The position numbers were made by a program, and so were the translations under genes. A stretch of DNA of 39,709 nt from NCBI GenBank assembly GCA_003563005.1, contig PWTC01000084.1:1-39709 (forward strand), read 5' to 3'. Of the stretch, positions 18,979 to 38,340 are shown in pieces. This DNA is from Candidatus Acetothermia bacterium. Its GTDB lineage: Bacteria > Bipolaricaulota > Bipolaricaulia > Bipolaricaulales > Bipolaricaulaceae. The notes beneath the pieces were generated by a model. The model had not been told where the DNA came from. It saw nothing but the letters and a program-made list of their open reading frames with translations, and did not search any database. The first letter of the stretch is position 1. Every line of letters starts with the position of its first letter.

Positions 18979-19539
18979 TCAGTACGGGAGCGTCACGCCC
19001 GGCTGATCCTGATAGCCGCCCCCGGATTCCTTCTCCGAGTAGGTACGGCCGGGGCGTGCCCCGCGGAAGAACACGACCTGGGAGATCCCTTGCCCTATGT
19101 GCATGCGTATGGGAAGCGGTGACAGATTCGCCAGCTCCAGCGTGAGGCGGCCGATCCAACCCGGCTCGAGCGGGGTGACGTTGACCAGAAGGCCGCAGCG
19201 GGCGTAGGAGCTCTTCCCCCAGGCAACACCCACGACGTCTTCGGGCATGTGGAAGGTCTCCACCGACTCGGCGAGGACCTGGGAGTTGGGGGCCAGCTCG
19301 AACACACGGTCTGCCTCCACGTGGCGGAAGTGGGCCCGCGGAAAGTCGACAGGGTCCAGTACCGCGTTCACCCCCCCCAAGGGAACCAGAAACCTTCTAC
19401 CCAGGCGCAGGTCGTACCCGAAGCTGCCCAGGCCCCACGAGGGCTTGCCCTCCTGGCGCTCCACGAAGGGGTCGAGCATCGGCGGTGAGATCTTGCACAG
19501 TGCGGTGATCTCGCGGTCGGACAGGATGGAGTAGCTCAC
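18979..19539 (-). CDS. dcd: dCTP deaminase
   Basis: Trimeric dCTP deaminase (or bifunctional dCTP deaminase-dUTPase), 186 residues, feeding dUTP/dUMP to thymidylate synthesis. Family signatures: GSFGYDLRLGRRF, SSYARCGLLVNVTPLEPGW, GRLTLELANLSPLPIRMHIGQGISQVVFF, and a C-terminal YSEKESGGGYQDQPG lid. The GTG start overlaps the thyX stop by 2 nt (GTGA), so the two are cotranscribed. A longer upstream frame is antisense or within thyX and is not used. Confidence 0.93.
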   Translation of the reverse strand: MSYSILSDREITALCKISPPMLDPFVERQEGKPSWGLGSFGYDLRLGRRFLVPLGGVNAVLDPVDFPRAHFRHVEADRVFELAPNSQVLAESVETFHMPEDVVGVAWGKSSYARCGLLVNVTPLEPGWIGRLTLELANLSPLPIRMHIGQGISQVVFFRGARPGRTYSEKESGGGYQDQPGVTLPY

Positions 19540-20123
19540 TCGGACACCTCCAGGTCTTCGAACACCGCTGCTGCTTGTTCCTTGAGCAGCTTGAGCATCC
19601 CGCGCGCGAGGTCGCGGATCTCCCACTGGGCATGGCCGGATCCCCTGAGGGCGATGATGTGCCGTGCCTCGCGGAAGTTGACGCACATGGCGAGTGCTGT
19701 GCTCGCGCCGATGGGAAGGACATACCGAGCGTCCTCTTTCGGGACGCCCTCTGCGACCAGCCTCTCGTAGAGCGCCACGGCCTCGTCGTACAGACGCTCG
19801 ACGGCCTGTTTCGAGTTCGAATCGGCGATCGAACGGGGAGTGACGAGCGGCCGGTCTCGCACGTCCACGTAGCGCTGGGACTCCTGTACGAAGCTGGCCA
19901 ACCGATGCCGGGTGAGCTGGTTGGCGCATGCCCGGGACAGCCCCTCGACCACGAACGTGGCCTGAGCGAACTCGAGCACCGAGAGGTGTCCCCAGCGGAT
20001 CAGTCGGCGCACGAGATCCGCGTCTGCCTCGGGGCCGGTGCCCTCGCTGCGGTGGCTGATCCTGGCGCAGCGTGCGATGTGCCCGATGGCGTCCGGTGTG
20101 ACGTGCACAAGCTCCACGTTCAT
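19536..20123 (-). CDS. thyX: Flavin-dependent thymidylate synthase
   Basis: ThyX converts dUMP to dTMP using FAD, NADPH and methylene-THF. The 195 residues contain the signature RHRx7S (RHRLASFVQESQRY), an N-terminal ISHRSE segment and LPIGASTALAMCVNFREARHII typical of the family. ATG 20123 has no clear Shine-Dalgarno; a TATTAT box 10 nt upstream sits at the edge of the palindromic repeat, so the mRNA may be leaderless. With dcd it forms a dCTP to dTMP module. Confidence 0.94.
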   Translation of the reverse strand: MNVELVHVTPDAIGHIARCARISHRSEGTGPEADADLVRRLIRWGHLSVLEFAQATFVVEGLSRACANQLTRHRLASFVQESQRYVDVRDRPLVTPRSIADSNSKQAVERLYDEAVALYERLVAEGVPKEDARYVLPIGASTALAMCVNFREARHIIALRGSGHAQWEIRDLARGMLKLLKEQAAAVFEDLEVSE

Positions 20124-20140
20124 GCTGGAGTAGATAATAA

Positions 20141-20247
20141 GGGGACAGGCTGGTTTTCGCGAAGCGAAAACCAGCCTGTCCCCCTCTCGCGAAGCGAAAA
20201 CCAACCTGTCCCCCTCTCGCGAAGCGAAAACCAGCCTGTCCCCTTTT
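20141..20247. repeat. Palindrome plus three 30-bp tandem repeats
   Basis: A 20-bp arm (20141-20160) pairs perfectly with 20164-20183 around a GAA loop. The right arm is part of a 30-bp unit (CGCGAAGCGAAAACC, then AGCCTGTCCCC) repeated at 20158-20187, 20188-20217 (one A/G change) and 20218-20247, the last ending in TTTT. It lies between the divergent thyX and trmI-like genes, so it may alter both promoters. It resembles an expanded REP unit, not a CRISPR: there are no spacers. Confidence 0.85.
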
Positions 20248-20261
20248 ACAATGGTGGGGTG

Positions 20262-21056
20262 ATGCGACCCTTGGAGTACGGAGAGGACGTCATGGTGTGC
20301 CTTGTCGGTCGTGAGAAATCCTTCCTGGTCACGCTCGAGCCCGGCGGGATGCTCCACAGCCATCGGGGGACCGTGTCCCACGACGCGCTGGTCGGGCGTC
20401 CTGCGGGCTCCCTCGTCCAGTCCAACCTGGGCGACTGGTTCATGGCCCTGCGGCCGCGGGTGGTCGATCGCATGTTCAAGGTGCGGCGGCGGACCCAGAT
20501 CGTGTACCCCAAGGACGCCGGGTGGATCGTGATGGCGCTCGATCTGAAATGCGGAGACAGGGTGATCGAGATGGGCACCGGGTCCGGTGCGTTGACGATC
20601 TTGCTGGCGCAGTTCGTCGGGCCCCAGGGACGTGTGTACACCTTCGACCAGGACGCTTAGCACCTGGAGAACGGCCTCGCCAACGTGGCCCGCGCTGGGC
20701 TCGGAGAGCGCGTGGAAGGTCAAGTGCTGTCCGCCGGGGAGCCGTTCCCTGTGTACGGTGTCGACGCGGTGTTCCTGGATCTCCCTGAGCCCTGGGAAGC
20801 GGTCCGCGCGGCCAGGGAGGCCATGGTGCCGGGGGCTCCATTGGCGCTTCTCGTGCCGACCGCCGAGCAGCTCAAGGCTTCGTTCGCCGGCCTTCAAGAC
20901 GCCGGCTTCTCGAGGATCGAGGCGGTGGAGCTTCTGGAGCGGCGGATGCTCGTGCGCTGGAAGGAGGGTGTCCGCCCTTCGGAGCGCATGGTGGGGTTCA
21001 CCGCCTACTTGGTCTCAGCACGCTCTACCCCGCCCCGCGAGGCGGGCGTCCCGTAG
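20262..21056 (+). pseudogene. tRNA (adenine-58-N1)-methyltransferase-like gene with in-frame TAG
   Basis: TrmI-like SAM-dependent methyltransferase that would make m1A58 in tRNA. Reading from ATG 20262, all family segments are present in one frame: TQIVYPKDAGWIVMALDL, the SAM motif IEMGTGSGALTILLA, VFLDLPEPWEAV and RMLVRWKEGVRPSERMVGFTAYLV. Codon 133 is TAG (20658-20660) right after YTFDQDA, at a position where the family has an ordinary residue; a GAG, CAG or AAG codon is one base away. There is no frameshift. Either it is a nonsense-inactivated gene, a sequencing error or a readthrough case. The 3' end overlaps hyuB by 52 nt. Confidence 0.85.
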
Positions 21057-22588: not shown

Positions 22589-24609
22589 GTGCCTACCTCC
22601 ACGAGCAGATTTCCGATCGCGTCCACCTCGGCCCGAGATCCGGGAGGGAGGAGGCAAGTGGACTCCTCCCCCTCGACGACGCAAGGCCCCTCGAGCGTCC
22701 TTCCTGCCGGGAGGGCCGTGCGGCGGAACACGGGCGTCTCCAGCGCGAAGTCCGGTCCGAAGTGGACCGACCTTCGCTCGACGAGCAGATCGCCGGACGC
22801 GATCCTGGGCGCCTCAGGCAGCGGGGCTTTGGCCACGAGTCCCCGTGCGGTGAGCCTGAGGCTCACGAGCTCCAGCGGCGCCTCGGGCGTCGCGAACCCG
22901 TAGGCCGCCTCGTGGGCGGCGTGGAACCGCTCCGCCAGAAGGGCGATGTCCGCGTGCGTGATCACGGGCGTGGAACAGGCTACGGTGAGTTCATGCCCCT
23001 GTCCCTGATAGCGCACATCCGCTGCCGCCTGGGCGCGGATCCCCCTGTGGGCCACGCCTGCGGCGGCAAGGCGCGCGTGTGCCTCACGCTCGAACTCGTC
23101 CCAGACACCCGCCAAGAGCTTCGGGGACAGGCGGCTCCAGGAGGTGACGAGCGAACGGACGAACGTGCATACGAGATCGGCCGCGGTCAGGCCCAGTGCC
23201 GAGAGCACGCCCGCGTGGGCCGGGACGAGCACGCGGGCGATCCCCAGCTTGCGGGCGAGGCTCACGCCGTGGAGGGGCCCGGCCCCGCCGAAGGCGACGA
23301 GTGCCAGCCCTCGTGGATCGTGGCCGCGCTCGACGGAGATGATACGGACGGCCCGCTCCATCGCCGCCTCGGCGATCTCCAGCACACCCCAGGCGGTTGC
23401 TGGGACGGGCATGTCCAGCTGAGCGGCGACTTTGGCGAGTGCGCGCTCGGCGCGCGCCCTGGAGAGGGCCTCGAGCCCTCCGAGGGGGCGGTCCGCGGGA
23501 AGCCGTCCGAGGATGAGCTGTGCGTCGGTGACCGTGGCCTCGGCTCCCCCGCTCCCGTAACAGGCCGGACCGGGCGATGCGCCCGCGCTGCGTGGCCCCA
23601 CCCGCAACGCACCGCCTGCGTCGACCCAAGCGATGCTGCCTCCACCCGCACCGATGGTGTGCACGTCCACCATGGGAAGGCGCACCGGGCGGCCAGCGAT
23701 GAGCTGCGCGCTCGACAGCTGCGCCTGGCCCTCGAGAACGAGGCCTACGTCGGTGCTCGTCCCTCCCATGTCCAACGTGATGGCGTCGGAAATCCCGGCG
23801 GCGGCGGCCACGGTCCTTGCGCCCTGGACGCCGGCTGCGGGGCCCGACAGAAGAAGCCCCGCGGCCCTGCGGCACGCGTCGGCGGGGCTCAACACGCCCC
23901 CCGCGGAGTCCATGAGGAGAAGAGGGCAGTTCCCCCCGCGTGCCGCCAGGCCGGCGCATAGGCGCTCCAGGTATCCGGCTACCACGGGCCGCAGCGCGGC
24001 AGAGACGACGGTCGTCGAGGTCCTCTCGTACTCGCGCACCTCGGGTAGGACCTCGCAGGAGAGCGTGATGGGGAGCTCCACCCCCTCGGCGCGTAGGAGC
24101 TCGGCCACGCGGCGTTCGTGGTGGCCGTCGAGGAAGGAGAACAACAACGCGACCGCGACCGACCGCACGCTTGCCGGGAGGGCGCGGGCCACTGCGCGTA
24201 CGGCCGGCTCATCGAGGGGTCGCACCACGCGACCGCGGGCGTCCAGGCGCTCGGGGATCTCGAAGCGCAACGTGCGGGGCACGATCGGTGCGGGCGGGAC
24301 GGCCTGCAGGTCGTAGAGCGCCGGCCGCGCCTGCCTTCCGATCTCCAGAACGTCGCGGGTCCCGTCCGTCACCAGGAGGGCCGTCTCCGCCCATGCCCCC
24401 TCGAGGAGCGCGTTCGTGGCCACGGTGCTCCCGTGGACGAGGCGGTCTAGTCCCACGGTGCTGAGCGCCTCAAGCCCTCTCAGGAAGCCTTCCTCCTGGG
24501 ATCGCGTCGAGGGGACCTTCAGCGTGCGCAGGTCTACGCCGTCCGTCCACACGAGGTCGGTGAACGTGCCCCCGACATCCACACCGACTGCGCGGACGCC
24601 GGCGCTCAT
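22576..24609 (-). CDS. hyuA: Hydantoinase A / oxoprolinase alpha-type subunit
   Basis: ATP-binding ASKHA-fold subunit of 677 residues, starting with VGVDVGGTFTDLVW (phosphate-1 loop) and carrying DMGGTSTDVGLV (phosphate-2) and an Asp/Gly-rich adenosine segment AFGGAGPLHG. It should activate the ring or carboxyl group of hydantoin, 5-oxoproline or a similar compound. It overlaps the phosphatase gene upstream by ATGA and hyuB downstream, so the three are one operon. Confidence 0.92.
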   Translation of the reverse strand: MSAGVRAVGVDVGGTFTDLVWTDGVDLRTLKVPSTRSQEEGFLRGLEALSTVGLDRLVHGSTVATNALLEGAWAETALLVTDGTRDVLEIGRQARPALYDLQAVPPAPIVPRTLRFEIPERLDARGRVVRPLDEPAVRAVARALPASVRSVAVALLFSFLDGHHERRVAELLRAEGVELPITLSCEVLPEVREYERTSTTVVSAALRPVVAGYLERLCAGLAARGGNCPLLLMDSAGGVLSPADACRRAAGLLLSGPAAGVQGARTVAAAAGISDAITLDMGGTSTDVGLVLEGQAQLSSAQLIAGRPVRLPMVDVHTIGAGGGSIAWVDAGGALRVGPRSAGASPGPACYGSGGAEATVTDAQLILGRLPADRPLGGLEALSRARAERALAKVAAQLDMPVPATAWGVLEIAEAAMERAVRIISVERGHDPRGLALVAFGGAGPLHGVSLARKLGIARVLVPAHAGVLSALGLTAADLVCTFVRSLVTSWSRLSPKLLAGVWDEFEREAHARLAAAGVAHRGIRAQAAADVRYQGQGHELTVACSTPVITHADIALLAERFHAAHEAAYGFATPEAPLELVSLRLTARGLVAKAPLPEAPRIASGDLLVERRSVHFGPDFALETPVFRRTALPAGRTLEGPCVVEGEESTCLLPPGSRAEVDAIGNLLVEVGTWTR

Positions 24610-25388
24610 CCCAGATCCACAAGTTCCAGATCCCGCGCCGTGCGCAGGGGACGGTCCGGGTGGAGGGTCGCGACCTGTCGCCTGCGTCCTCCGTAGGCGT
24701 GCGACGTGAAGACAGTCAGGCAGCGGCCGTCGTACATGTGGGTCGGTGCCGTGGGCTGGTGCGAACGCACGACCGCGCGCAGCTCAAGGCGTTCCGTGAC
24801 GTGAGCGAAGTGGTCGGCACCGAACGCGGGACGGCTGGTGACGAGCGCTGTCTCCGCTTCGGCGTCGGAAGCATCGCTCCAGTCTCCCCATACGATCGCC
24901 TTCCAGTCAGGGGAACCCAAGGGGAGGCCCTCGATCTCCTCCAGACTCTCGACGGCGGGGATGGCTCCGTGGACCGCGAGGAGTCCTTGCGGGTGGTACG
25001 CCGCGAACGGAAGGAGCGAGAGGACCCCCGACCACGCCTCCTCTTCTTCCGGGCTGAGCGTCTCCCAGAAGTCCGCAGGAGAGAAGGATGTTGCTGCCCA
25101 ACCCTCGTGGTTGCCCATCAGCAGGACCACGCTCTCGGGATGGTCGATCCGGGATCGGGCCAGCAGCACGAGGTTCTCCAGCGACGCGGGACCGCGGTCC
25201 ACGTAGTCGCCGAGGAAGACGAGCACATGCTCCCCGGGAGGGAAACGCGTGAGCACGCGCTGGGTAGCCTCCACATCGCCGTGGGTGTCGCCTACGAACA
25301 CGACCGGCCTTCCTGTCGGTAGCCGTTCCAGGCGGGGCGCCCCGTCGAGCGCGCACTCGAGGGATGCGATCAGGTGTGCATCGCGCAT
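24606..25388 (-). CDS. PPP-type metallophosphoesterase
   Basis: Serine/threonine-phosphatase-like metallophosphoesterase, 260 residues. The metal motifs are complete: GDTHGD, GDYVDRG, GNHE, with later histidines in VHGAIP and RSHQP. Such proteins act as protein phosphatases or ApaH-like Ap4A hydrolases. ATG 25388 is chosen since TTGCAG-17-TACCGT ends 8 nt before it (leaderless). It heads an operon with hyuA and hyuB; a regulatory link is only inferred. Confidence 0.9.
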   Translation of the reverse strand: MRDAHLIASLECALDGAPRLERLPTGRPVVFVGDTHGDVEATQRVLTRFPPGEHVLVFLGDYVDRGPASLENLVLLARSRIDHPESVVLLMGNHEGWAATSFSPADFWETLSPEEEEAWSGVLSLLPFAAYHPQGLLAVHGAIPAVESLEEIEGLPLGSPDWKAIVWGDWSDASDAEAETALVTSRPAFGADHFAHVTERLELRAVVRSHQPTAPTHMYDGRCLTVFTSHAYGGRRRQVATLHPDRPLRTARDLELVDLG

Positions 25389-25396
25389 TTGGAGAT

Positions 25397-25425
25397 ACGG
25401 TAGCGCCTGCCCTGCCGGGCTGCAA
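25397..25425 (-). promoter_or_regulatory. Sigma70-like promoter of phosphatase-hyuA-hyuB operon, leaderless
   Basis: Minus strand TTGCAG (25425-25420), 17 nt, TACCGT (25402-25397), 8 nt to the ATG. Same spacing as the promoters at 4708-4736 and 6425-6453. Confidence 0.55.
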
Positions 25426-25468
25426 CGTGTTGTCGGGTGTCTACCAGGCACTCGAGGCCCTGGCGGGC

Positions 25469-25497
25469 TTGCGTCTGTCGCCCCGGGGGAATAGGAT
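25469..25497 (+). promoter_or_regulatory. Sigma70-like promoter for the trpB2 leader
   Basis: TTGCGT (25469-25474), 17 nt, TAGGAT (25492-25497). Expected start about 25504, directly at a GTG-ATG pair that opens a 17-18 codon ORF. Confidence 0.5.
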
Positions 25498-25506
25498 ACG
25501 CGTGTG

Positions 25507-25560
25507 ATGTACAAGCAGCGCATCATCCGCTGCACCCTGCGCGAGTTCTGGCGCCGCTAA
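25507..25560 (+). CDS. Possible 17-aa leader peptide upstream of trpB2
   Basis: ORF of 17 codons (MYKQRIIRC, TLREFWRR) that begins at or next to the predicted transcription start, so it would be read leaderlessly. Its stop lies within a hairpin GGCGCC-GCTAA-GGCGCC (25551-25567) followed by a pyrimidine run. It has one Trp next to Phe and several Arg codons. This fits a leader-peptide attenuator but is not proof. Confidence 0.35.
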   Translation: MYKQRIIRCTLREFWRR

Positions 25561-27133: not shown

Positions 27134-27757
27134 TCAGCTTTGGGCTGGGTGACCGGGAGGGACGAAGTGATCGCGGCAGCGAGCCTCGTAGGATTCGAGT
27201 CCCCCCACGAGGATCTCGGGACCGCCTTCGGCGGGGGCGCCGTTCACCAGACGCTGCGTGCGTGTGGCGGGCTGGCCGCAGACCACGCAGACGGCGGAGA
27301 GCTTGAGCACCTCGTCGGCCTGCGCGAGCAGCACTGGCATCGGGCCGAACGGTTCGCCGCGGAAGTTGAGGTCGAGCCCCGCGACGATGAGGCGCTTTCC
27401 GGACTGCACGAGTACTTCGCACAGGGAGGGGAAGTCCTGTCCGAAGAAGTTGCCTTCGTCGAAGGCCACCACATCGGCCATCTCCAGCTCCCACCCGGCT
27501 GCCTCATGTAGCGCATCGATCGAAGGATCCTGCGGGACACGGAAACAGGGCAGGCGCCGCCCGTGATGGGCGACCACCTCCTCGGGGGCGTACCGCGTGT
27601 CGAGCGCGGGTTTGACCAACAGCACGTGTTTGCGCCCGATGCGGGCGCGCTCCACGCGCCGGAGGAGTTCCTCCGTCTTGCCCGAGAACATGCACCCCGC
27701 GATGACCTCCAAGCGTCCAGCCACGCAGGGATGGTACATCCCCTGCGTCAAGGCCAC
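27134..27757 (-). CDS. tdk: Thymidine kinase, TK1-type
   Basis: Phosphorylates thymidine (and deoxyuridine) to dTMP with ATP, the salvage route. The 207 residues show the P-loop GCMFSGKTEEL, the catalytic DEGNFF (usual DEAQFF), GLDLNFRGEPFG, a zinc CxxC (CVVCG) with its second half YEARCRDHF. GTG 27757 or ATG 27739 could be the start; neither has a good Shine-Dalgarno. It is divergent from the nuclease/ABC operon, consistent with a shared role in using external DNA. Confidence 0.92.
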   Translation of the reverse strand: MALTQGMYHPCVAGRLEVIAGCMFSGKTEELLRRVERARIGRKHVLLVKPALDTRYAPEEVVAHHGRRLPCFRVPQDPSIDALHEAAGWELEMADVVAFDEGNFFGQDFPSLCEVLVQSGKRLIVAGLDLNFRGEPFGPMPVLLAQADEVLKLSAVCVVCGQPATRTQRLVNGAPAEGGPEILVGGLESYEARCRDHFVPPGHPAQS

Positions 27758-27794: not shown

Positions 27795-27803
27795 CGAGTG
27801 CCG

Positions 27804-28673
27804 ATGGCGGTATCGGGTGAGGCGCAGCGGCTCCGGGGGATGACGACTTACCGTCTGCAGCGAGGGCTGGGGCGGATGTCTCTGTACGTGGTGCTCATCG
27901 TGGGCGCGGTGGTCATGCTTCTGCCCTTCTTCTGGATGCTGTCCACATCGTTCAAGACCCTGGTCGATGCGATGCGCATCCCGCCGATCTGGATTCCGTC
28001 GCCGTTGCAGTGGCAGAACTACCCGGCCGCTTGGCACGCCGCGCCGTTCGCACGCTACTTCTTCAACTCGTTTTTCATCTCGAGCATGACCATGGTCGGC
28101 GAGGTCATCACCTGTATCTTCGCCGGGTACGCGTTTGCCAAGATGAAGTTCTTCGGAAAGCACGTCTTGTTCCTGCTTGTCCTGGCCACCTTCATGATCC
28201 CCGGGCACATGCTGCTCGTCCCCAGCTACGTGCTGGTCCGCGGCTTGGGTTGGTACGACACATACTGGGCCCTCATCATGCCCTGGATCACCTCGGGCTT
28301 TGGCATCTTCCTGATGCGGCAGTTCTTCCGGACGCTGCCGGATGAACTGTGGGACGCGGCGCGGATCGACGGTTGCCCCAGAGTACGCTATGTGCTGCAG
28401 ATAGCTGTTCCTATGGTGCGTCCGGGGATCGCCACGGTGGCGCTTCTGCAGTTCATCAACTCCTGGAACTCGTTTCTGTGGGTGCTCATCATGACCGACA
28501 GCCCGCTCATGCGTACCATCCCCGTGGGGTTGCGCTTCTTCCAGATGGAAGCAGGTACGGAGTATCCCATGCTCATGGCTGCCAGCACGATGGCGATCGT
28601 ACCGGTGATCATCTTGTTCTTCTTTGCGCAGAAGCACTTCGTGCGCGGCCTGGCGAGGACGGGAGTCAAGTGA
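27804..28673 (+). CDS. CUT1-type ABC sugar permease (MalG/UgpE-like)
   Basis: Inner-membrane permease with six predicted membrane segments, 289 residues. The EAA loop ELWDAARIDGCPRVRYVLQIAVPMVRPG near the C-terminal third is diagnostic for the MalG class. ATG 27804 is favoured by a promoter ending 9 nt before it; GTG 27798 and ATG 27840 are alternatives. Cargo is expected to be a sugar, glycerol phosphate or nucleoside-like solute. It opens the operon ahead of the binding protein. Confidence 0.9.
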   Translation: MAVSGEAQRLRGMTTYRLQRGLGRMSLYVVLIVGAVVMLLPFFWMLSTSFKTLVDAMRIPPIWIPSPLQWQNYPAAWHAAPFARYFFNSFFISSMTMVGEVITCIFAGYAFAKMKFFGKHVLFLLVLATFMIPGHMLLVPSYVLVRGLGWYDTYWALIMPWITSGFGIFLMRQFFRTLPDELWDAARIDGCPRVRYVLQIAVPMVRPGIATVALLQFINSWNSFLWVLIMTDSPLMRTIPVGLRFFQMEAGTEYPMLMAASTMAIVPVIILFFFAQKHFVRGLARTGVK

Positions 28674-28766: not shown

Positions 28767-29984
28767 ATGCGTAGGTTCTTTGTGGTAGCAATGGCAGGAC
28801 TGTTGGCCGCCGGAGTGGCGGGTGTCGCGAGTGTGGAAATCAGCTTTTGGCATGTCTTCACCGAGGAGCACGCACGAGCGCTTCAGGCTTTGGCTGATGA
28901 GTTCATGGTCGAGAACCCGGATGTCAAGGTGGAACTAGTTTTCCAGGGCGGATACGGTGACCTTTCCCGGAAGCTCTTCGCCGCGCTGGCTGCCGGCACG
29001 CCGCCCACGTTGTCCCTGCAGTACGAGAACTGGACGACGCAGTGGCTGGATTCGTTGGTGGATCTCGATGCGTACGTGGACCCGGACGTTCTCGCCGATG
29101 TTCACCCCCGGTTCGTGCAGGAGTTCGACGGTCGTCTGGTGACGCTGCCGTTCAACCGCTCGATCATCATCATGTACTACCGCAAGGACATGGTGCCCGA
29201 GCCTCCCACGACGTGGGATGCGCTCCTCGAGCTGTGCCGCGAGCTGACCCAGGACACCACGGGTGACGGCGAGACCGACTTCTGGGGTTTCCATCTGCGT
29301 CCGCGGAGCCCTGAGGAGGCGTTCCTCATCTACCTAGAGCAGGCAGGGGGGACGATCCTTTCCGAGGACTGGACCGAGGTGACGATCAACGACGAAGACG
29401 GACTCAGGACGGCCGATTTCCTCACGGAGCTTGCCCAGTACTCGCTCGTCGACCCGGCGTTCTCCTCCGGTCCGTTCGGCGAGGGTGTTGTCGCCATGTT
29501 CATTGGCACGTCTGCCGGCCTTCCCTTCAACCAGGCCGCGGCCCAGAGGGCCGGCGTTGAACTGGGGTTCGCAACCGTGCCCTATCCGGAGGACGGCAGG
29601 CCCGCCTCGCAGATGATGGGGACGAACGTTGCCATCTTCGAAATGGGGCAGTCCGAGGCGCAGATCGAGGCCGCGGCGCGGTTCATCGAGTATTTGCTCA
29701 GGCCGGAGAACACCATCGACTGGGCGTCGATCACGGGTTACATCCCGGTGACCACCAGCGCCATCGAGTCGGAAGCGTGGCAGGCGAAGATGGATGAGAA
29801 CCCCTTCTTCGCAGTTCAGACAGAACAGCTGGTGATTGGCGGCTTTGGCCAGCTGCTCCACCCGGAGTATTGGGACATACGGTCCGTGATCACGGACTAC
29901 GTCGAGATCATCATCATGGGCGACATGGCCCCTAAGCAGGCTCTGGACGCCTTGGCTGACGAGATCAGGTGGATCATAGAGTAG
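28767..29984 (+). CDS. ABC extracellular solute-binding protein, family 1 (UgpB/MalE-like)
   Basis: Binding protein of 405 residues with a signal peptide (cleavage near GVASVE) and the family-1 core VEISFWHVFTEEHARALQALADEF, FQGGYGDLSRKLFAALAAGTPPTL, LPFNRSIIIMYYRKDM and TTWDALLELCRELT. These resemble UgpB-type proteins for glycerol-3-phosphate and sugars; the ligand here is unknown. Strong Shine-Dalgarno (CGGAGGTGAG). A 12-bp hairpin follows the stop and probably keeps its mRNA level above that of the second permease. Confidence 0.92.
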   Translation: MRRFFVVAMAGLLAAGVAGVASVEISFWHVFTEEHARALQALADEFMVENPDVKVELVFQGGYGDLSRKLFAALAAGTPPTLSLQYENWTTQWLDSLVDLDAYVDPDVLADVHPRFVQEFDGRLVTLPFNRSIIIMYYRKDMVPEPPTTWDALLELCRELTQDTTGDGETDFWGFHLRPRSPEEAFLIYLEQAGGTILSEDWTEVTINDEDGLRTADFLTELAQYSLVDPAFSSGPFGEGVVAMFIGTSAGLPFNQAAAQRAGVELGFATVPYPEDGRPASQMMGTNVAIFEMGQSEAQIEAAARFIEYLLRPENTIDWASITGYIPVTTSAIESEAWQAKMDENPFFAVQTEQLVIGGFGQLLHPEYWDIRSVITDYVEIIIMGDMAPKQALDALADEIRWIIE

Positions 29985-30033: not shown

Positions 30034-30969
30034 ATGGCCGGCCGAAGAGGATTGCGGAACCCGAGGGCCTTGCGTGAGTCCGGGGAGGCGTATCTCTACC
30101 TCCTCCCGGCGTTCTTCATTCTGGGCCTGTTCACCTTCTACCCCTTCGTAGACGCATTCCGAATGAGCTTCCAGAACGTGCGGACGGGGGTACGGATCGA
30201 CGGGCAGTTGATCCCGTTCTTCCGTGAGTACATCGGACTCACGAACTTCCAGATCTTGTTCCGCGACCGCCATTTCCTCCAGGCCCTTACCCAGACGTCG
30301 ATCTACGTTGCGATCTCCGTTCCGCTGACGCTGGGGCTGGCGCTGCTGCTTGCCACGGCACTCAACCAGGCACTGCGCATGCGGGCTTTCTTCCGGCTAG
30401 CCTACTTCATCCCGTACATCACCCCGGTGGTGGCCCTGGCCATGGTGTGGACCTGGATCTACCACGATCGGGTAGGATTGCTGAACTACATATTGGGCCT
30501 GTTCGGTATCAGCCGCATGCGCTGGCTGAACGATCCCTCGCTGGCGTTGCCAGCGATCATCCTGTTCAACGTGCTGAGGTACGTGGGCTATCAGGCGCTC
30601 ATTCTCTTGGCCGGGATGCAGAATATAGAACGTACTTACTACGAGGCTGCCAGGGTCGACGGGGCCAGCCCTGCCAAGGCGTGGCGGCACATCACCGTGC
30701 CGCTCTTGACGCCGCAGCTGTTCTTCGTGTTCCTGATCTCTTTGATGGGAGCCTACAGGATTTTCGATGAGGTGTTCATCCTGTTCGCCGGGGGGGCAGG
30801 CCCTCTGGGCAGCGCTCGGACGATCGTCTTCTACCTCTACGACCAGGCCTTCAACAACTTCCGCTTGGGCCGGGCCGCGGCGGCGTCCGTGGTGTTGTTC
30901 GGGATCATCTTCGTGTTGGCGCTGTTCCAGATCACGGTTACCCAGAGAAGGGTCCACTACGACCAGTAA
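30034..30969 (+). CDS. CUT1-type ABC sugar permease (MalF/UgpA-like)
   Basis: Second permease subunit, 311 residues, with six membrane segments and the EAA loop TYYEAARVDGASPAKAWRHITVPLLTP. It pairs with the MalG-like protein encoded upstream. The order malG-malE-malF is unusual, and no ATPase gene is in the cluster, so a shared MsmX/UgpC-type ATPase must come from elsewhere. The ATG at 30034 has only a weak ribosome-binding site. Confidence 0.92.
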   Translation: MAGRRGLRNPRALRESGEAYLYLLPAFFILGLFTFYPFVDAFRMSFQNVRTGVRIDGQLIPFFREYIGLTNFQILFRDRHFLQALTQTSIYVAISVPLTLGLALLLATALNQALRMRAFFRLAYFIPYITPVVALAMVWTWIYHDRVGLLNYILGLFGISRMRWLNDPSLALPAIILFNVLRYVGYQALILLAGMQNIERTYYEAARVDGASPAKAWRHITVPLLTPQLFFVFLISLMGAYRIFDEVFILFAGGAGPLGSARTIVFYLYDQAFNNFRLGRAAAASVVLFGIIFVLALFQITVTQRRVHYDQ

Positions 30970-31001: not shown

Positions 31002-32912
31002 ATGAGATACCCGCTGTTCGTGGCGCTTGCGCTGCTTGTGTGGGCAGGTTTGGCCCTGGGAGCAGTCCCTGGGGATCCTTTCGAGGTGAGAGTTCTCAGC
31101 GCCGTCGATGGGGACACCGTGGATGTCCGGGTCATGGATCCTCCGGAGGGCGTCTGGCTGCGGGAGCGCGTGCGCTTGCTCGGTTTCGACGCTCCGGAGA
31201 TCGGTGAGCCATACGCTGCCGAGGCCACTCGTCTGGTGCGTGAACTGGCGCGCAGCGGCAGGACGTGGTTGGAGCTGGACCGACAACTGCGCGACCCCTA
31301 CGACCGCCTGCTGGCCCACCTTTGGGTGGAAATCGACGAGGACTGGCTGCTTGTCGGTGAGGAGGTACTGCGCGCTGGACTGGCTCGGACGCTGTTCATC
31401 CCCCCGAACGATAGCTATTGGGACCGGTTGCGCAGGGCCGAACTCGAGGCCCAGGTACGTGGTGCAGGCATTTGGGGGGTGTTCGCCGAGCCGCTCTCGC
31501 TCCGTGAGCTGGAGGGGGATCCGGTTCGCTACGTGACTAAGGTTGTCTCCGTACGCATGACCATCGGTGAGATCCAGGCCACGACCGCTGGGGTGGTGCT
31601 GCACGCCGTTGGCTCCGGCATGGGATTCCATGCAGTGGTCGACGAGCCTGTCTGGGATGCCTTGGAGGGGCAGCTGAAAGCAGCCGTGGGTACGCGGATC
31701 GACGTGCGTGGGGAACTCGACTGGCGGAGGCTGGCCGACGGCCCGTTCATCCGCGTAGAGTGGGCCGAGCAGATCGAGCTAGTGGACGAGTGGCCCCGTG
31801 GGGGGTTCATCCACGGACCGTACACGGGGGCACCCGATGGCGCAGGCGTGACCGTGTCCTGGACGGCCGAGCCCCCTCTTCCTGGGCGTGTGGAGTACGG
31901 ACTCTGGGAGGAGTACGTGGCGACACAGGAGCTCCCACTCAGCGTAGCCTATAACCCAGACGCGGCCGAGGGCAGGGCGACGGCGCATGTCCGGCTGCAT
32001 GCACTGGATCCGAGCAGCCGCTACGCCTATCGCGTGGTGCTCGGGACGGAAGACGAAGAGGAATCCTCCCCAGTGGGGACATTCCACACGGCGCCACACG
32101 CGGGCGAGCCATTGGCCTTTGCCGTGATCGCCGACACCCAGTGGCAATGGGATGGCGTGAACCGCATCCAGCTCGTGGGAGATGCGCTGGCGTCAGATCC
32201 CAGCGAGCTGCACTTCATCCTCCACGGTGGGGACCTGGTGGAAAGCCCCATCCCGCGATTCTGGGACCACATGTTCTTCTCTCTCTCCGATGCCCTGTTG
32301 CGGGCTCCGTTCCTGCCGGTATTGGGCAATCACGAGCGCAATTCGCGCACGTATTACGAGCTGTTCACACTTCCCCCTGGCGGTGGACTGATGGACAAAC
32401 GCTGGTGGGCCTTGGAGTACGGTGATGTGGTGGTGATCGGCCTGGACACGAACGTGAACCGTCCGGGCGACTACACAGCGCAGGTCGAGTTCCTGCGCGA
32501 GCAGCTTTCGGGGGAACACGCCCACCGGTTTGTGATCTTCCACCACCCGGTGTTCACCTCGGATGCGATCTACGGCCCTGGGTCGGACGGATTACAGTTG
32601 CTTTTCCATCCCGTGTTCACCGAGATGGGTGTGAATATCGTGTTCACCGGGCACGCACACAACTACGAGCGGATAGAGCGCGACGGCGTGACGTACCTTG
32701 TGGTGGGCGGCGGAGGAGCGACGCTGCGTCCGTTGGCCGCTGAGCGCGTGGACGGCTCTCAGTTCTCCTGTGACGAGCACTACTTCTACGTGCGGGTGTT
32801 CACCGATCCCGAGGGGATTCGTGTGGAGGCGGTGAAGGTCGCCCGTCAGCTGAACGGTGAGGTCGTGCCCGCGAGCGGAATCCTGGACGCTTTCACGTTG
32901 CCGTCCGACTAG
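31002..32912 (+). CDS. Secreted thermonuclease-OB-purple acid phosphatase fusion
   Basis: Multidomain exported protein of 636 residues. Signal peptide (cleavage near ALGAVPG). Residues about 27-165 are a staphylococcal-nuclease domain: Asp36/Asp38 (VDGDTV), Arg58, Asp63 and Glu66 in VRLLGFDAPE, and Arg102 in DPYDRLLA match the calcium and catalytic residues. About 170-265 is OB-like. About 268-370 is a fibronectin-like PAP N-domain. About 375-600 is a metallophosphoesterase with ADTQ (378), GGD (409), GNHE (442-445), FHHPVF and GHAHNYE (550-556). It should cut nucleic acid and remove phosphate. Strong Shine-Dalgarno GAGGAGGTG; last gene of the ABC operon. Confidence 0.9.
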   Translation: MRYPLFVALALLVWAGLALGAVPGDPFEVRVLSAVDGDTVDVRVMDPPEGVWLRERVRLLGFDAPEIGEPYAAEATRLVRELARSGRTWLELDRQLRDPYDRLLAHLWVEIDEDWLLVGEEVLRAGLARTLFIPPNDSYWDRLRRAELEAQVRGAGIWGVFAEPLSLRELEGDPVRYVTKVVSVRMTIGEIQATTAGVVLHAVGSGMGFHAVVDEPVWDALEGQLKAAVGTRIDVRGELDWRRLADGPFIRVEWAEQIELVDEWPRGGFIHGPYTGAPDGAGVTVSWTAEPPLPGRVEYGLWEEYVATQELPLSVAYNPDAAEGRATAHVRLHALDPSSRYAYRVVLGTEDEEESSPVGTFHTAPHAGEPLAFAVIADTQWQWDGVNRIQLVGDALASDPSELHFILHGGDLVESPIPRFWDHMFFSLSDALLRAPFLPVLGNHERNSRTYYELFTLPPGGGLMDKRWWALEYGDVVVIGLDTNVNRPGDYTAQVEFLREQLSGEHAHRFVIFHHPVFTSDAIYGPGSDGLQLLFHPVFTEMGVNIVFTGHAHNYERIERDGVTYLVVGGGGATLRPLAAERVDGSQFSCDEHYFYVRVFTDPEGIRVEAVKVARQLNGEVVPASGILDAFTLPSD

Positions 32913-33704: not shown

Positions 33705-33995
33705 ATGCCCGATCAGTACGCCGCGTTCTTCAAGTGCTTCTGTGCCTCGTCGCGCAATCGGATGCTGAGGGTACTCGCGCAACACGGCGAGTTGTCCGTT
33801 GAGGAGATCGCACAGCGAGTCGGGCTGAAGGAACCCACCGTGTCGCGCCACCTCCAGCTCCTGCGCCTGCATGGTGTTGTCGAAGTCCGCCCCGAGCCAC
33901 CCATGCACTACTATTCGCTGAACGGTGATGTGGTTCCGCGGAGGTTCGCCGACTTCTTGGCCTTCCTCGGGTTGACGGGGTCGTCCGAGGCGTGA
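33705..33995 (+). CDS. ArsR-family winged-helix regulator
   Basis: A 96-residue transcription factor with a winged helix-turn-helix (LAQHGELSVEEIAQRVGLKEPTVSRHLQLLRLHGVVEVRPE). Near the N-terminus FFKCFCASSRNRML carries two cysteines as in some metal- or redox-sensing relatives, but no ELCVCDL arsenic/cadmium box is present, so the inducer is unknown. Shine-Dalgarno GATGAGGAGGGGAG. It probably represses its own and the divergent DUF192 promoter. Confidence 0.9.
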   Translation: MPDQYAAFFKCFCASSRNRMLRVLAQHGELSVEEIAQRVGLKEPTVSRHLQLLRLHGVVEVRPEPPMHYYSLNGDVVPRRFADFLAFLGLTGSSEA

Positions 33996-34039
33996 GGCGC
34001 GGTGACCCGCGGCGTGAGGAGGGGACGGGTGCTCGTGTG

Positions 34040-34076
34040 AGCCCCGTACGGGGGCTGTTCCGGGGGAGACCCCCGG
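34040..34076 (+). terminator. Two hairpins downstream of the ArsR gene
   Basis: AGCCCC/GGGGCT (34040-34056) and CCGGGGG-AGA-CCCCCGG (34060-34076) lie in the 166-nt gap before floA. There is no U tract. Possibly terminator plus leader structure. Confidence 0.4.
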
Positions 34077-34161
34077 AGACGGCCAAGGCAGGCCTGCGAC
34101 GAGGGCCGACCAGGGGACATCCGCGCGGAGCGTGCTCCAACTGCGGACAGGAGGCTTGGCA

Positions 34162-35055
34162 ATGGGCTTGACGATCTACGTGGTTGCGGGTATCGCGTTG
34201 TTCTTCGTGTGGCTCTTCTTCTACTTCGTGCCTGTTGGGCTCTGGATCTCGGCCCTTGCCGCGGGGGTCCCCGTAGGGCCGGGATCTCTGATCGGAATGC
34301 GGCTGAGGAAGGTCAGCCCACACAGGGTCGTGGGGCCGATGATCGCCGCATGGAAGGCGGGACTTCAGCCGTCGGCCTCAGGCCTTGAGGCCCACTACCT
34401 GGCCGGGGGGAGTGTAGATCGCGTCGTGCGGGCGCTCATCTCGGCGGACAAGGCGAGCATCGCGCTGGATTTCGAGCGGGCGGCGGCCATCGATCTGGCG
34501 GGACGTGACGTACACGACGCCGTAGCCATGTCGGTCAACCCGCGCGTAATCGACACCCCGCGCATCGGGGCGGTCGCCAGAGACGGCATCCAGCTCTATG
34601 CCCACGCCCGCGTAACCGTGCGTGCCAACATCGCCGCCCTTGTCGGAGGCGCTACCGAGGCGACGGTCATCGCCCGTGTGGGAGAGGGCATCGTATCTGC
34701 AATTGGCTCCGCATCCGACCATAAGGAAGTCCTCCGGAACCCCAACTCCATCTCCGAGCGGGTACTGGAGCGGGGACTGGACGCCGGCACGGCGTTCGAG
34801 ATCCTCTCCATCGACATCGCTGACATCGATGTGGGGCGCAACATCGGGGCTGAGCTCCAGATGGATCAGGCGACGGCCGATCTGCGGGTAGCGCAGGCTA
34901 AAGCTGAGCAACGTAGGGCGATGGCCGTCGCCCAGGAACAGGAGATGAAGGCCCTGGTGCAGGAGCGGCGCGCAGCCGTCGTGGAAGCCGAGGCCGAGGT
35001 CCCCCGGGCGATCGCGGGGGCATTCCGGAAAGGCCAGATGGGGGCCTTGAGCTAG
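34162..35055 (+). CDS. floA: Flotillin-like protein FloA, short C-terminus
   Basis: SPFH/UPF0365 membrane-scaffold protein that oligomerises in lipid microdomains, 297 residues. N-terminal membrane hairpin ([27 protein letters not shown]), then the family core RMRL-like [50 protein letters not shown], and [18 protein letters not shown] leading into an Ala/Glu-rich coiled coil. The C-terminus stops after [13 protein letters not shown], some 30 residues earlier than Bacillus FloA (about 331). No NfeD partner is adjacent. ATG 34162 has GGAGG upstream. Confidence 0.92.
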
Positions 35056-35349: not shown

Positions 35350-38340
35350 GTGGGCGGGCGTACGGCGAAAGGAGGCCGCCTGGCCAGCCGGGGAGCACGC
35401 AAGAGCTCAGGTGCAGGTGCCGGAGGAACTCCGCGCATCCTGGGTGACCTTCGCTTGGGCGACCATCTGTGCATCATCTACCGCAACGATGAGGAGCACC
35501 GTGCCATCCTGAGCGAGTACATGAGCCAAGGACTGCGCTTGGGGCAGCGGATGGTCTACATCGTGGACGCGCGCACGGCGCGGACCCTCCGCGGCTACCT
35601 GCGGGGGGCGGAGGTGGATGTGCCGGCCGCGGAGGAGCGCGGCCAGTTGGTGTTTCTCACGCGGGACGACGCCTACATGAGGGGAGGAGAGTTCGACCCG
35701 CAGGGGATGATCAGACTTCTTCGCGAGGAGACGCAGCGGGCGCTGGATGAGGGGTACGAGGGCCTGCGGGTGACGGGGGAGATGACATGGGCGCTGCGGG
35801 GGCTGCCTGGTTCGGAGCGGCTGATGGAGTACGAGGCGCTGCTGAACGAGTTCTTCCCTGGTTCGAAGGCCACGGCGCTCTGCCAGTACGACGCCCGGCA
35901 CTTTCCGGCGGAGGTCCTGCTCGATGTCCTGCGCACGCACCCCATCGCCGTCGTAGGGACGAAGGTCTACGACAACTTCTACTACGTGCCGCCGGAAGAG
36001 ATGCTCGCTGGGAAGAGCGCGGCGGCGACACTGGAGCGTTGGGTGGGGAGCCTGGAGGAGAACCGGCGGCTGACGGAGAGCTTGCGGGAGCACACAAGAG
36101 CGCTGGAGGAACGGCTAAAGGAGCTGGAGTGCCTGCGGGAGGTGCGGGAGCTCACCGCCCGTGAGGAGCTTCCTGTCCCCGAGCTTATGCAGGCGGCGCT
36201 GGAGCCGATCCGGCGGGGTTGGCGCTGGCCGGAGTGGGTGCAGGTGCGCATCGGCCTGGGGGAGTGGCACTACCAGACGGCCGGGTACCAGGAGACGCCG
36301 CACCGCATAACCGCGGAGATCCGCCGTCAGGACGAGCCGGTGGGCACGTTGGAGGTGAGCTACCCGGAACCAGCGCCGGCGGCCGAGCCGTTCCTCTCCG
36401 AGGAACGCGCGCTACTCGGGGCGCTTGCCACGCGGCTTGGCCAGGCGCTGACATCGCGCTGGCAGGATGAGAGGATCCTGCACCTGAACTCGGTGCTCAA
36501 GGCGATCCGCAACGTGAACCAGCTGATCGTGCGCGAGCGTGAGGAGGGGGCGCTGATCCGGGGGGCGTGCGCCATGCTGGCGGAGGCACGGGGGTTCTCG
36601 TTTGCGTGGATCGTGTTGCTGGACGAGGGGGGCAGACCTGCACGGTGGGACGGATCAGGGGTGGACGAGGAACTGGCTCAGCTGGTGAGTGCCTGGAGCG
36701 AGGGGAAACTGCCGCTCTGTGCCGAGCGGGCGCTGGGGAACGCACCGCCCGCGGTCATCGACGATCTGTCGCGGGATGGTGGGGGCTGCCCGGTAGCTGC
36801 GGGTCATCCTGGTGAGGCGGGGATGGCGGCGGCGATCCGGCACGAGGGGCGGGCGTACGGGGTGATGGCAGTGGGGCTGCCGCCGGGGTACGCGTCGGAC
36901 CCCGAGGAGCAGGCGCTGATGGCCGAGGTCGCGGGGGATCTGGGGTACGCGATTGCGGGGATTCGAGCCGAAGCGGCGCGGCGGGAGACGGAGCGGCAGC
37001 TCGGGCAGTTGATGGCGAACCTGCCGGGGATGGCCTACCGGTGTCGTGTGGACCGGGATTGGACGATGGAGTTCCTGAGCGAGGGATGCCGAGAACTCCT
37101 GGGGTACGCGCCCGAGGCGGTCGTGGGCAGCCGTGTTGTGGCGTACGGTGAGCTGGTCCACCCGGACGATCGGGAGCGGATCTGGGATGAAGTGCAGCAG
37201 GCGGTTGCACAACAGGAACTGTTCACCCTGACTTACAGGGTCCGCACGCGCGCGGGCGAGGAGAAGTGGGTGTGGGAACAGGGGGGCGCGGTCCTGCAGG
37301 ACACGGGTGAGGTTGTGCTTGAGGGGTTCATCACCGACGTCACGGACACCGTGCGTGCACAGGACGCGCTGCGGGAGAGCGAGGAGCACTACAGAACGCT
37401 GTTTGAGAGAACGACCAACCCGATCCTCGTCATCGACGTGGAGGGGAACTACTTGGATGGGAACGAGGCTGCGCTCTGGTTCCTCGAGTGCACGCGAGAG
37501 GAGCTTATCGGACGGAACGTGGCAGACATGCTTCCCCCGGGCGTGGACTCCGACGTTGTGATGCGCGCGCACAGAGAGCTGTGGAAGCGTGGTGGGAGGA
37601 TAGAGACCGACCACTATGTCAACGGCGTTCTGAAGACGCTTGACCTTACCATCACCCCAGGCTCTCGGCAGGGGAGGCCTGTCATCTGGGGTGTGGGGAC
37701 GGACATCACAGAACGCAAGCAGGCTGACGCGAGCTTGCGGGCAAGCAAGGAGCGGTACCGGCAGCTGTTTTCCGGAGTGGTGCTGTCCCTGGCGAGGCTC
37801 TCGGAGATGCGCGACCCGTACACGGCTGGGCATCAGCAGCGGGTGGCCGAGCTCGCCGGTGCGATCGCCGCGAGGATGGGCCTGGCGGATGAGCGGGTCG
37901 AGGCCCTGCGCATCGCCGCGCTCCTGCACGACATCGGCAAGTCATCCGTGCCGGCGGAGATCCTGAACAAGCCGACGAAGCTGAGCGAGCTGGAGTTCAG
38001 CATAGTGAAGGGGCACGTCCAGGCAAGCTATGACATCCTGGAGAGGATTCCCTTCGAGAGCCCGGTGGCGGAGGTTGTACTGCAGCACCATGAACGGCTG
38101 GACGGCTCGGGCTATCCGCAGGGGCTCGAGGGGGAGGAGATCCTGTTTGAGGCACGGATCCTGACGGTGGCCGATGTGGTGGAAGCGATGGCCTCGCACC
38201 GGCCGTATCGTCCGGCGTTGGGGGTCGACGAAGCCCTGGGGGAGATTCTGACCCACAGGGGACGGCTCTACGATCCCGATGTGGTGAAAGCCTGTGTGGC
38301 GCTCTTTGAGGAGGGCTTCGAGATCCCCCGGGCCGGATGA
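35350..38340 (+). CDS. MEDS-GAF-GAF-PAS-PAS-HD-GYP c-di-GMP phosphodiesterase
   Basis: A 996-residue cytosolic sensor. Order: MEDS domain about 33-215 (LRLGDHLCIIYRNDEEHRAIL, VTGEMTWALRG), coiled coil 230-285, GAF-like 285-400, GAF about 405-545, PAS about 555-680, PAS 690-810 and HD-GYP 815-996. The HD-GYP part has LLHDIGK with His860-Asp861 and HHERLDGSGYP (His913-His914, Gly921-Tyr922-Pro923), so it should hydrolyse c-di-GMP to GMP. MEDS domains (from DcmR-type regulators) bind small hydrocarbon-like ligands in some relatives. No membrane segment is seen. The GTG start is preceded by GGGAAGAGGG. The downstream GGDEF sensor may antagonise it. Confidence 0.9.
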   Translation: MGGRTAKGGRLASRGARKSSGAGAGGTPRILGDLRLGDHLCIIYRNDEEHRAILSEYMSQGLRLGQRMVYIVDARTARTLRGYLRGAEVDVPAAEERGQLVFLTRDDAYMRGGEFDPQGMIRLLREETQRALDEGYEGLRVTGEMTWALRGLPGSERLMEYEALLNEFFPGSKATALCQYDARHFPAEVLLDVLRTHPIAVVGTKVYDNFYYVPPEEMLAGKSAAATLERWVGSLEENRRLTESLREHTRALEERLKELECLREVRELTAREELPVPELMQAALEPIRRGWRWPEWVQVRIGLGEWHYQTAGYQETPHRITAEIRRQDEPVGTLEVSYPEPAPAAEPFLSEERALLGALATRLGQALTSRWQDERILHLNSVLKAIRNVNQLIVREREEGALIRGACAMLAEARGFSFAWIVLLDEGGRPARWDGSGVDEELAQLVSAWSEGKLPLCAERALGNAPPAVIDDLSRDGGGCPVAAGHPGEAGMAAAIRHEGRAYGVMAVGLPPGYASDPEEQALMAEVAGDLGYAIAGIRAEAARRETERQLGQLMANLPGMAYRCRVDRDWTMEFLSEGCRELLGYAPEAVVGSRVVAYGELVHPDDRERIWDEVQQAVAQQELFTLTYRVRTRAGEEKWVWEQGGAVLQDTGEVVLEGFITDVTDTVRAQDALRESEEHYRTLFERTTNPILVIDVEGNYLDGNEAALWFLECTREELIGRNVADMLPPGVDSDVVMRAHRELWKRGGRIETDHYVNGVLKTLDLTITPGSRQGRPVIWGVGTDITERKQADASLRASKERYRQLFSGVVLSLARLSEMRDPYTAGHQQRVAELAGAIAARMGLADERVEALRIAALLHDIGKSSVPAEILNKPTKLSELEFSIVKGHVQASYDILERIPFESPVAEVVLQHHERLDGSGYPQGLEGEEILFEARILTVADVVEAMASHRPYRPALGVDEALGEILTHRGRLYDPDVVKACVALFEEGFEIPRAG

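Follow-up and report, generated by a model that had tools for sequence, protein, structure and literature searches.

Does a single bacterial protein really join a thermonuclease to an enzyme resembling purple acid phosphatases (PAPs), and if so, what would such a protein do for its host? These questions are raised by an open reading frame in a 39,709-nucleotide stretch of DNA, all of which is referred to here as the window, from a Bipolaricaulota bacterium whose genome is 88% complete. The genes for extracellular-DNA enzymes and importers usually lie dispersed and are difficult to spot; in this uncultured phylum, four such functions (nuclease, phosphatase, importer, and thymidine kinase) are grouped at one locus, the first two now as one protein.

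Domain organization of the fusion protein

The open reading frame extends from 31002 to 32912 on the forward strand, is uninterrupted to the TAG stop codon ending at 32912, and has an ATG start preceded by the ribosome-binding site GAGGAGG. It is present in single copy in the genome and encodes 636 amino acids. The signal-peptide-like N-terminus (MRYPLFVALALLVWAGLALGAVP; 31002..31070, +) was read from the sequence and appears in the structural model as a low-confidence helix at residues 4-14. It is followed on the same strand by a thermonuclease (SNase) domain (approximately residues 27-159; 31080..31478), an OB-fold domain (approximately residues 163-263; 31488..31790), a fusion junction or linker, DEWPRGGF (31788..31811), placed by comparison with relatives in which the gene is split, a fibronectin-like PAP N-terminal domain (residues 281-363; 31842..32090), and a metallophosphoesterase catalytic domain (residues 373-555; 32118..32666). 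The protein is predicted from its sequence to be exported. Pfam searches matched SNase (PF00565) at residues 56-158 (E 2.5e-12), Pur_ac_phosph_N (PF16656) at 281-363 (E 2.3e-7), and Metallophos (PF00149) at 373-555 (E 1.4e-12), each exceeding its curated cut-off, and the AlphaFold2 model of the full-length protein had a mean pLDDT of 88. Pfam, AlphaFold2, and Foldseek together bear out the sequence-only reading of this locus, which had placed SNase, OB-like, and PAP-like domains in one polypeptide.

The SNase domain scored 47.6 bits against a PF00565 cut-off of 21 and matched Staphylococcus aureus nuclease both in sequence (E 4.3e-10) and in fold (Foldseek, TM 0.89). Residues D38, T39, R58, E66, and R102 align with D21, T22, R35, E43, and R87 of the S. 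aureus enzyme and are invariant in 21 of 21 relatives; the key positions named from the sequence alone (D38, R58, E66, and R102) were thus correctly located. The S. aureus Ca2+ ligand D40 corresponds to D63 here and is Asn in 8 of the 21 members, which counts against the scavenging role proposed below. The domain is probably Ca2+-dependent. Enzymes of the SNase family produce 3'-phosphate ends.

The segment between the SNase and PAP-like domains (residues 163-263) matched no family in the Pfam search and was modeled by AlphaFold2 with a pLDDT of 92. Foldseek related it to the anticodon-binding domains of class-II aminoacyl-tRNA synthetases and to Stn1/CST OB folds (E 5e-5 to 3e-4), both of which are nucleic-acid-binding, and, at the sequence level, a profile of the segment matched PriB weakly (E 0.07). 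The modeled structure supports reading this segment as an OB-like domain.

In the phosphatase half, PAP folds ranked best in Foldseek, with plant purple acid phosphatases matching at E ~1e-21. Plant enzymes (PDB 1xzw, 4dhl) share with the fusion protein the two-domain fold and six metal ligands, here D378, D411, N443, H514, H551, and H553, which are invariant in all 20 members aligned. In alignment with sweet-potato PAP, however, the position of the Tyr ligand of the ferric site (GDxxY) is E414, and the DxH position, two residues after the first Asp, is Q380; these are Glu and Gln, respectively, in 20/20 members, whereas the plant enzymes have the Tyr ligand. That Tyr is the source of the purple color and the defining residue of the family. 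The metal motifs, which had been taken as complete, are therefore complete for a general metallophosphoesterase but not for a PAP. We reject assignment as a true purple acid phosphatase on the basis of the Tyr-to-Glu replacement in all 20 members and, given both substitutions, use the name PAP-like metallophosphoesterase.

Distribution and origin of the fusion

Among the 100 Bipolaricaulota genomes searched, the full fusion was found in 8, every one within the family of the window (G000, G010, G003, G029, G023, G004, G036, and G061); the G003 copy is cut by a contig end and the G036 copy is split over two contigs. The architecture is thus not widespread within the phylum. In at least 18 other genomes (13 closest-relative neighborhoods and at least five more), the two halves are neighboring genes. 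That the halves are separate in most relatives might suggest that an assembly or frameshift error has united two genes. The fusions, however, come from independent assemblies at 58-69% identity, the junction is homologous in all eight genomes, one of which is a single-contig assembly, and a missed stop codon would not account for the loss of the second signal peptide. We consider the chance of such an artefact negligible; the SNase-OB-PAP-like fusion is genuine.

The split pairs suggest how the fusion could have formed. Several overlap as ATGA, so that one base both opens the PAP start codon and closes the final SNase codon, and the split PAP genes begin at the SNase stop with a signal-peptide-like N-terminus of their own. 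In the fusions, the linker W-P-x-x-x-F-[ILV]-H-G-P-Y stands in place of the stop and the second signal peptide. The fusion probably arose from two adjacent, translationally coupled genes for secreted proteins by loss of the first stop codon and the second signal peptide.

All fusions form one clade in the SNase tree (UFBoot 99), whereas in the importer tree the fused operons fall at two places. Two independent fusions are disfavored despite the importer tree, since the SNase clade is single and the junctions are homologous. The simplest reading of the sequences is one fusion that was later exchanged between lineages, and mosaic PAP genes argue for such exchange. The split PAP of G032 is ~95% identical to the fused PAP of G029 over residues 390-569 and only ~28-48% identical over 270-359. 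This G032 gene (L038:9324-10481 versus L032:8030-9928) is a mosaic with a G029-like catalytic part and an N-terminal domain of the split type, which suggests recombination between fused and split alleles.

Occurrence outside Bipolaricaulota was tested weakly, with a plasmid collection that held no full-length fusion and with an insensitive genome-wide search using a single fusion protein, which returned two loci; the named relatives from the latter assign the host to Bipolaricaulota. The PAP proteins of G014 and G020 (L049:7858-9144, -, and L050:9149-10495) carry a C-terminal hydrophobic stretch followed by ...LRR that resembles a membrane anchor.

Gene neighborhood

Three genes for an ABC importer precede the fusion gene on the same strand. 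Permease A (UgpE-like; 27798..28673, +) and permease B (UgpA-like; 30034..30969, +) both match PF00528 and score under the cut-offs of their NCBIfam models (UgpE, 6e-41; UgpA, 7e-34), permease A being conserved in position; between them lies a substrate-binding protein of the CUT1/UgpB group (28767..29984, +). The gaps from permease A through the binding protein and permease B to the fusion gene are ~93, 49, and 32 nt, and we infer that the four genes are co-transcribed. No Rfam match to an upstream RNA regulator was found anywhere in the window. In many relatives (e.g., L032:6563-7780), permease B carries extra sequence, absent from the window's version, inserted behind its first membrane segment.

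The order importer-SNase-PAP on one strand, fused or split, is found in the window and 20 relatives, and the importer order is kept in all neighborhoods of the closest relatives. In 12 further genomes, belonging to two families, the importer adjoins SNase, PAP, or both. Five loci have a PAP gene with no importer nearby, which counts against a scavenging role.

A thymidine kinase gene (27134..27757, -; PF00265, 8.9e-44) diverges from the operon at a distance of ~40 nt and has the same place in 16 other genomes, making 17 genomes, with the window, in which it and the importer diverge at a spacing of no more than 210 nt. It lies 2-2.7 kb from the importer in three genomes and just downstream on the same strand in two; in the sequence covered for eight genomes with an importer linked to SNase and/or PAP it was not found, a further point against scavenging. 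Open reading frames for a dCTP deaminase-like protein and for the thymidylate synthase ThyX are near neighbors (18979-20897, -) some 7 kb away from the thymidine kinase gene, so de novo TMP synthesis is probably also present.

Elsewhere in the host genome, and in keeping with scavenging, there is one MalK-type ATPase gene, unlinked to the operon, and three PNP_UDP_1 genes. A search for DeoC, and with it for deoxyribose catabolism, gave no match in the genome (88% complete), which also weighs against scavenging; the absence is probably due to genome incompleteness, as DeoC is present in 31 of 36 relatives, and its presence there again fits scavenging.

Proposed role

The importer and thymidine kinase genes next to it suggest that the fusion gene belongs to a locus that scavenges nucleic acids, for which its product is probably the exported enzyme. 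In this protein, the SNase domain would cut DNA and/or RNA to fragments and nucleotides with 3'-phosphates, and the OB-fold domain may help it by holding single strands. The tethered PAP-like metallophosphoesterase would strip terminal phosphates, leaving phosphate, nucleosides, and short dephosphorylated oligonucleotides. These products would enter the cell through the CUT1-type ABC importer of the same operon, presumably powered by the unlinked MalK-type ATPase, and the divergent thymidine kinase would trap thymidine as TMP. The conserved importer and thymidine kinase next to the fusion gene strengthen the earlier suggestion that nuclease and phosphatase act jointly on DNA or RNA ends to give nucleosides and phosphate. 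The claim that this occurs in one step is too strong, as the chain has two active sites that would act sequentially.

Secreted nucleases elsewhere serve in matrix remodeling or in removal of incoming DNA during phage attack or competence (e.g., PMC4118848), and the enzyme could have such a role with its gene order being incidental. We regard this as very improbable, because coupling to a phosphatase, an importer, and a thymidine kinase is conserved over two families. The locus offers a testable handle on nucleic-acid turnover in uncultured bacteria, and its importer is a defined candidate for one that carries nucleosides or dinucleotides.

Importer substrate

The best NCBIfam models for the three importer parts are UgpB, UgpA, and UgpE, all matched far under their cut-offs (93 bits for the binding protein against a UgpB cut-off of 411), and scores against every named transporter family are likewise far under cut-off, which counts against the scavenging reading. 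The best solved relatives of the binding protein are the PDB 7c0f/7c0v group (E 2e-33), distant in sequence, which we take to be the U3G (dinucleotide)-binding protein of Thermus. The Thermus U3G-binding protein is a member of the UgpB branch; two Tyr and two Ser residues that contact phosphate are common to UgpB and the glycerophosphocholine (GPC)- and U3G-binding proteins, and a Trp pair is special to UgpB (PMC12718374). The four phosphate-contact residues are kept in every operon binding protein that covers those positions, and the Trp pair is missing, a conserved segment ending in Arg-Pro being found instead. This combination favors a phosphorylated or nucleotide-like ligand.

The Ugp matches could be taken to mean that the importer is a true Ugp system for glycerol phosphates or glycerophosphodiesters, with the enzymes serving mainly to release free phosphate. 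With scores so far under the cut-offs and no Trp pair to clamp glycerol phosphate, a true Ugp transporter is unlikely, and the thymidine kinase and nuclease point to nucleic acids, so we consider (organo)phosphate scavenging improbable.

A variant of the nucleic-acid-scavenging explanation differs in the species imported: the SNase would yield NpNp, the phosphatase would trim only the 3'-phosphate, and NpN would be imported and cleaved inside the cell. Dinucleotides may be imported given that the nearest solved relative, in the 7c0f group (E 2e-33), is presumably a dinucleotide binder, and SNase is known for leaving 3'-phosphate ends. In addition, the phosphate-contacting Tyr/Ser set of the Thermus protein (PMC12718374) is kept in all operons. 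Those four residues are, however, also common to glycerophosphate binders, and the thymidine kinase requires a nucleoside. Although the contact residues of the Thermus U3G/UgpB group are identical to those of the operon protein, the sequence match is remote, a dinucleotide is a putative ligand of the operon protein, and the link from the PDB codes to the Thermus protein is presumptive. We hold this route as a tentative possibility. A broader version, in which Bipolaricaulota have a phylum-wide locus for eating DNA or RNA whose exported two-enzyme chain makes dinucleotides that are imported whole, with the adjacent kinase salvaging the thymine part, is somewhat more doubtful; if true, it would be a nucleic-acid utilization locus comparable to polysaccharide utilization loci.

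Comparison with known systems

The scavenging role preferred here has partial counterparts in other bacteria. In YhcR of Bacillus subtilis, a UshA-type 5'-nucleotidase occurs together with a TNase domain. This protein is reportedly the subject of Oussenko et al. 2004. YhcR is a nonspecific nuclease that also has an OB-fold part and apparently acts as a 5'-nucleotidase (PMC3222306, PMC6085458, PMC4118848), and so resembles the fusion in having an exported nonspecific nuclease, an OB fold, and a nucleotidase/metallophosphoesterase in one chain. The fusion protein differs in that its phosphatase is PAP-like, with no Pfam match to a UshA-type 5'-nucleotidase C-terminal domain, and in its linked importer and thymidine kinase. 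YhcR is also sortase-anchored and has a Tat signal, whereas the fusion has no C-terminal sortase anchor motif, ending in ...DAFTLPSD directly after the catalytic domain.

Other systems divide these functions. Pseudomonas aeruginosa EddA-EddB are a co-encoded secreted phosphatase and DNase for the use of extracellular DNA, described without a linked importer of the kind found beside the fusion (PMC3572637); they are separate proteins from families other than those of the fused domains, alkaline phosphatase in one case and ExeM-type DNase in the other. Shewanella ExeM joins an OB-fold region to a nuclease (PMC6085458), in this case of EEP type rather than SNase. In marine degraders of extracellular DNA, nuclease, nucleotidase, and transporter are combined by the cell on separate proteins (PMC8289736). 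No account of an SNase-PAP fusion turned up in the open-access literature, in agreement with the sequence-only reading, which knew of no described enzyme with exactly this fusion, but YhcR is a precedent for the nuclease-OB-nucleotidase principle, and the joining of nuclease and phosphatase is already described from other bacteria. The apparent novelty lies in the phosphatase partner being PAP-like, in the derivation of the protein by fusion from a coupled gene pair, and in the association with an importer and a thymidine kinase across Bipolaricaulota.

Other features of the window

A second metallophosphoesterase gene (24606-25535, -; PF00149, 1e-19) lies less than 3 kb from the operon. Beyond the fusion gene, a small ArsR-type regulator is followed by a flotillin-like FloA gene (33705-35055), and a 996-amino-acid protein of MEDS-GAF-PAS-PAS-HD(GYP-like) architecture is encoded at 35350-38340.
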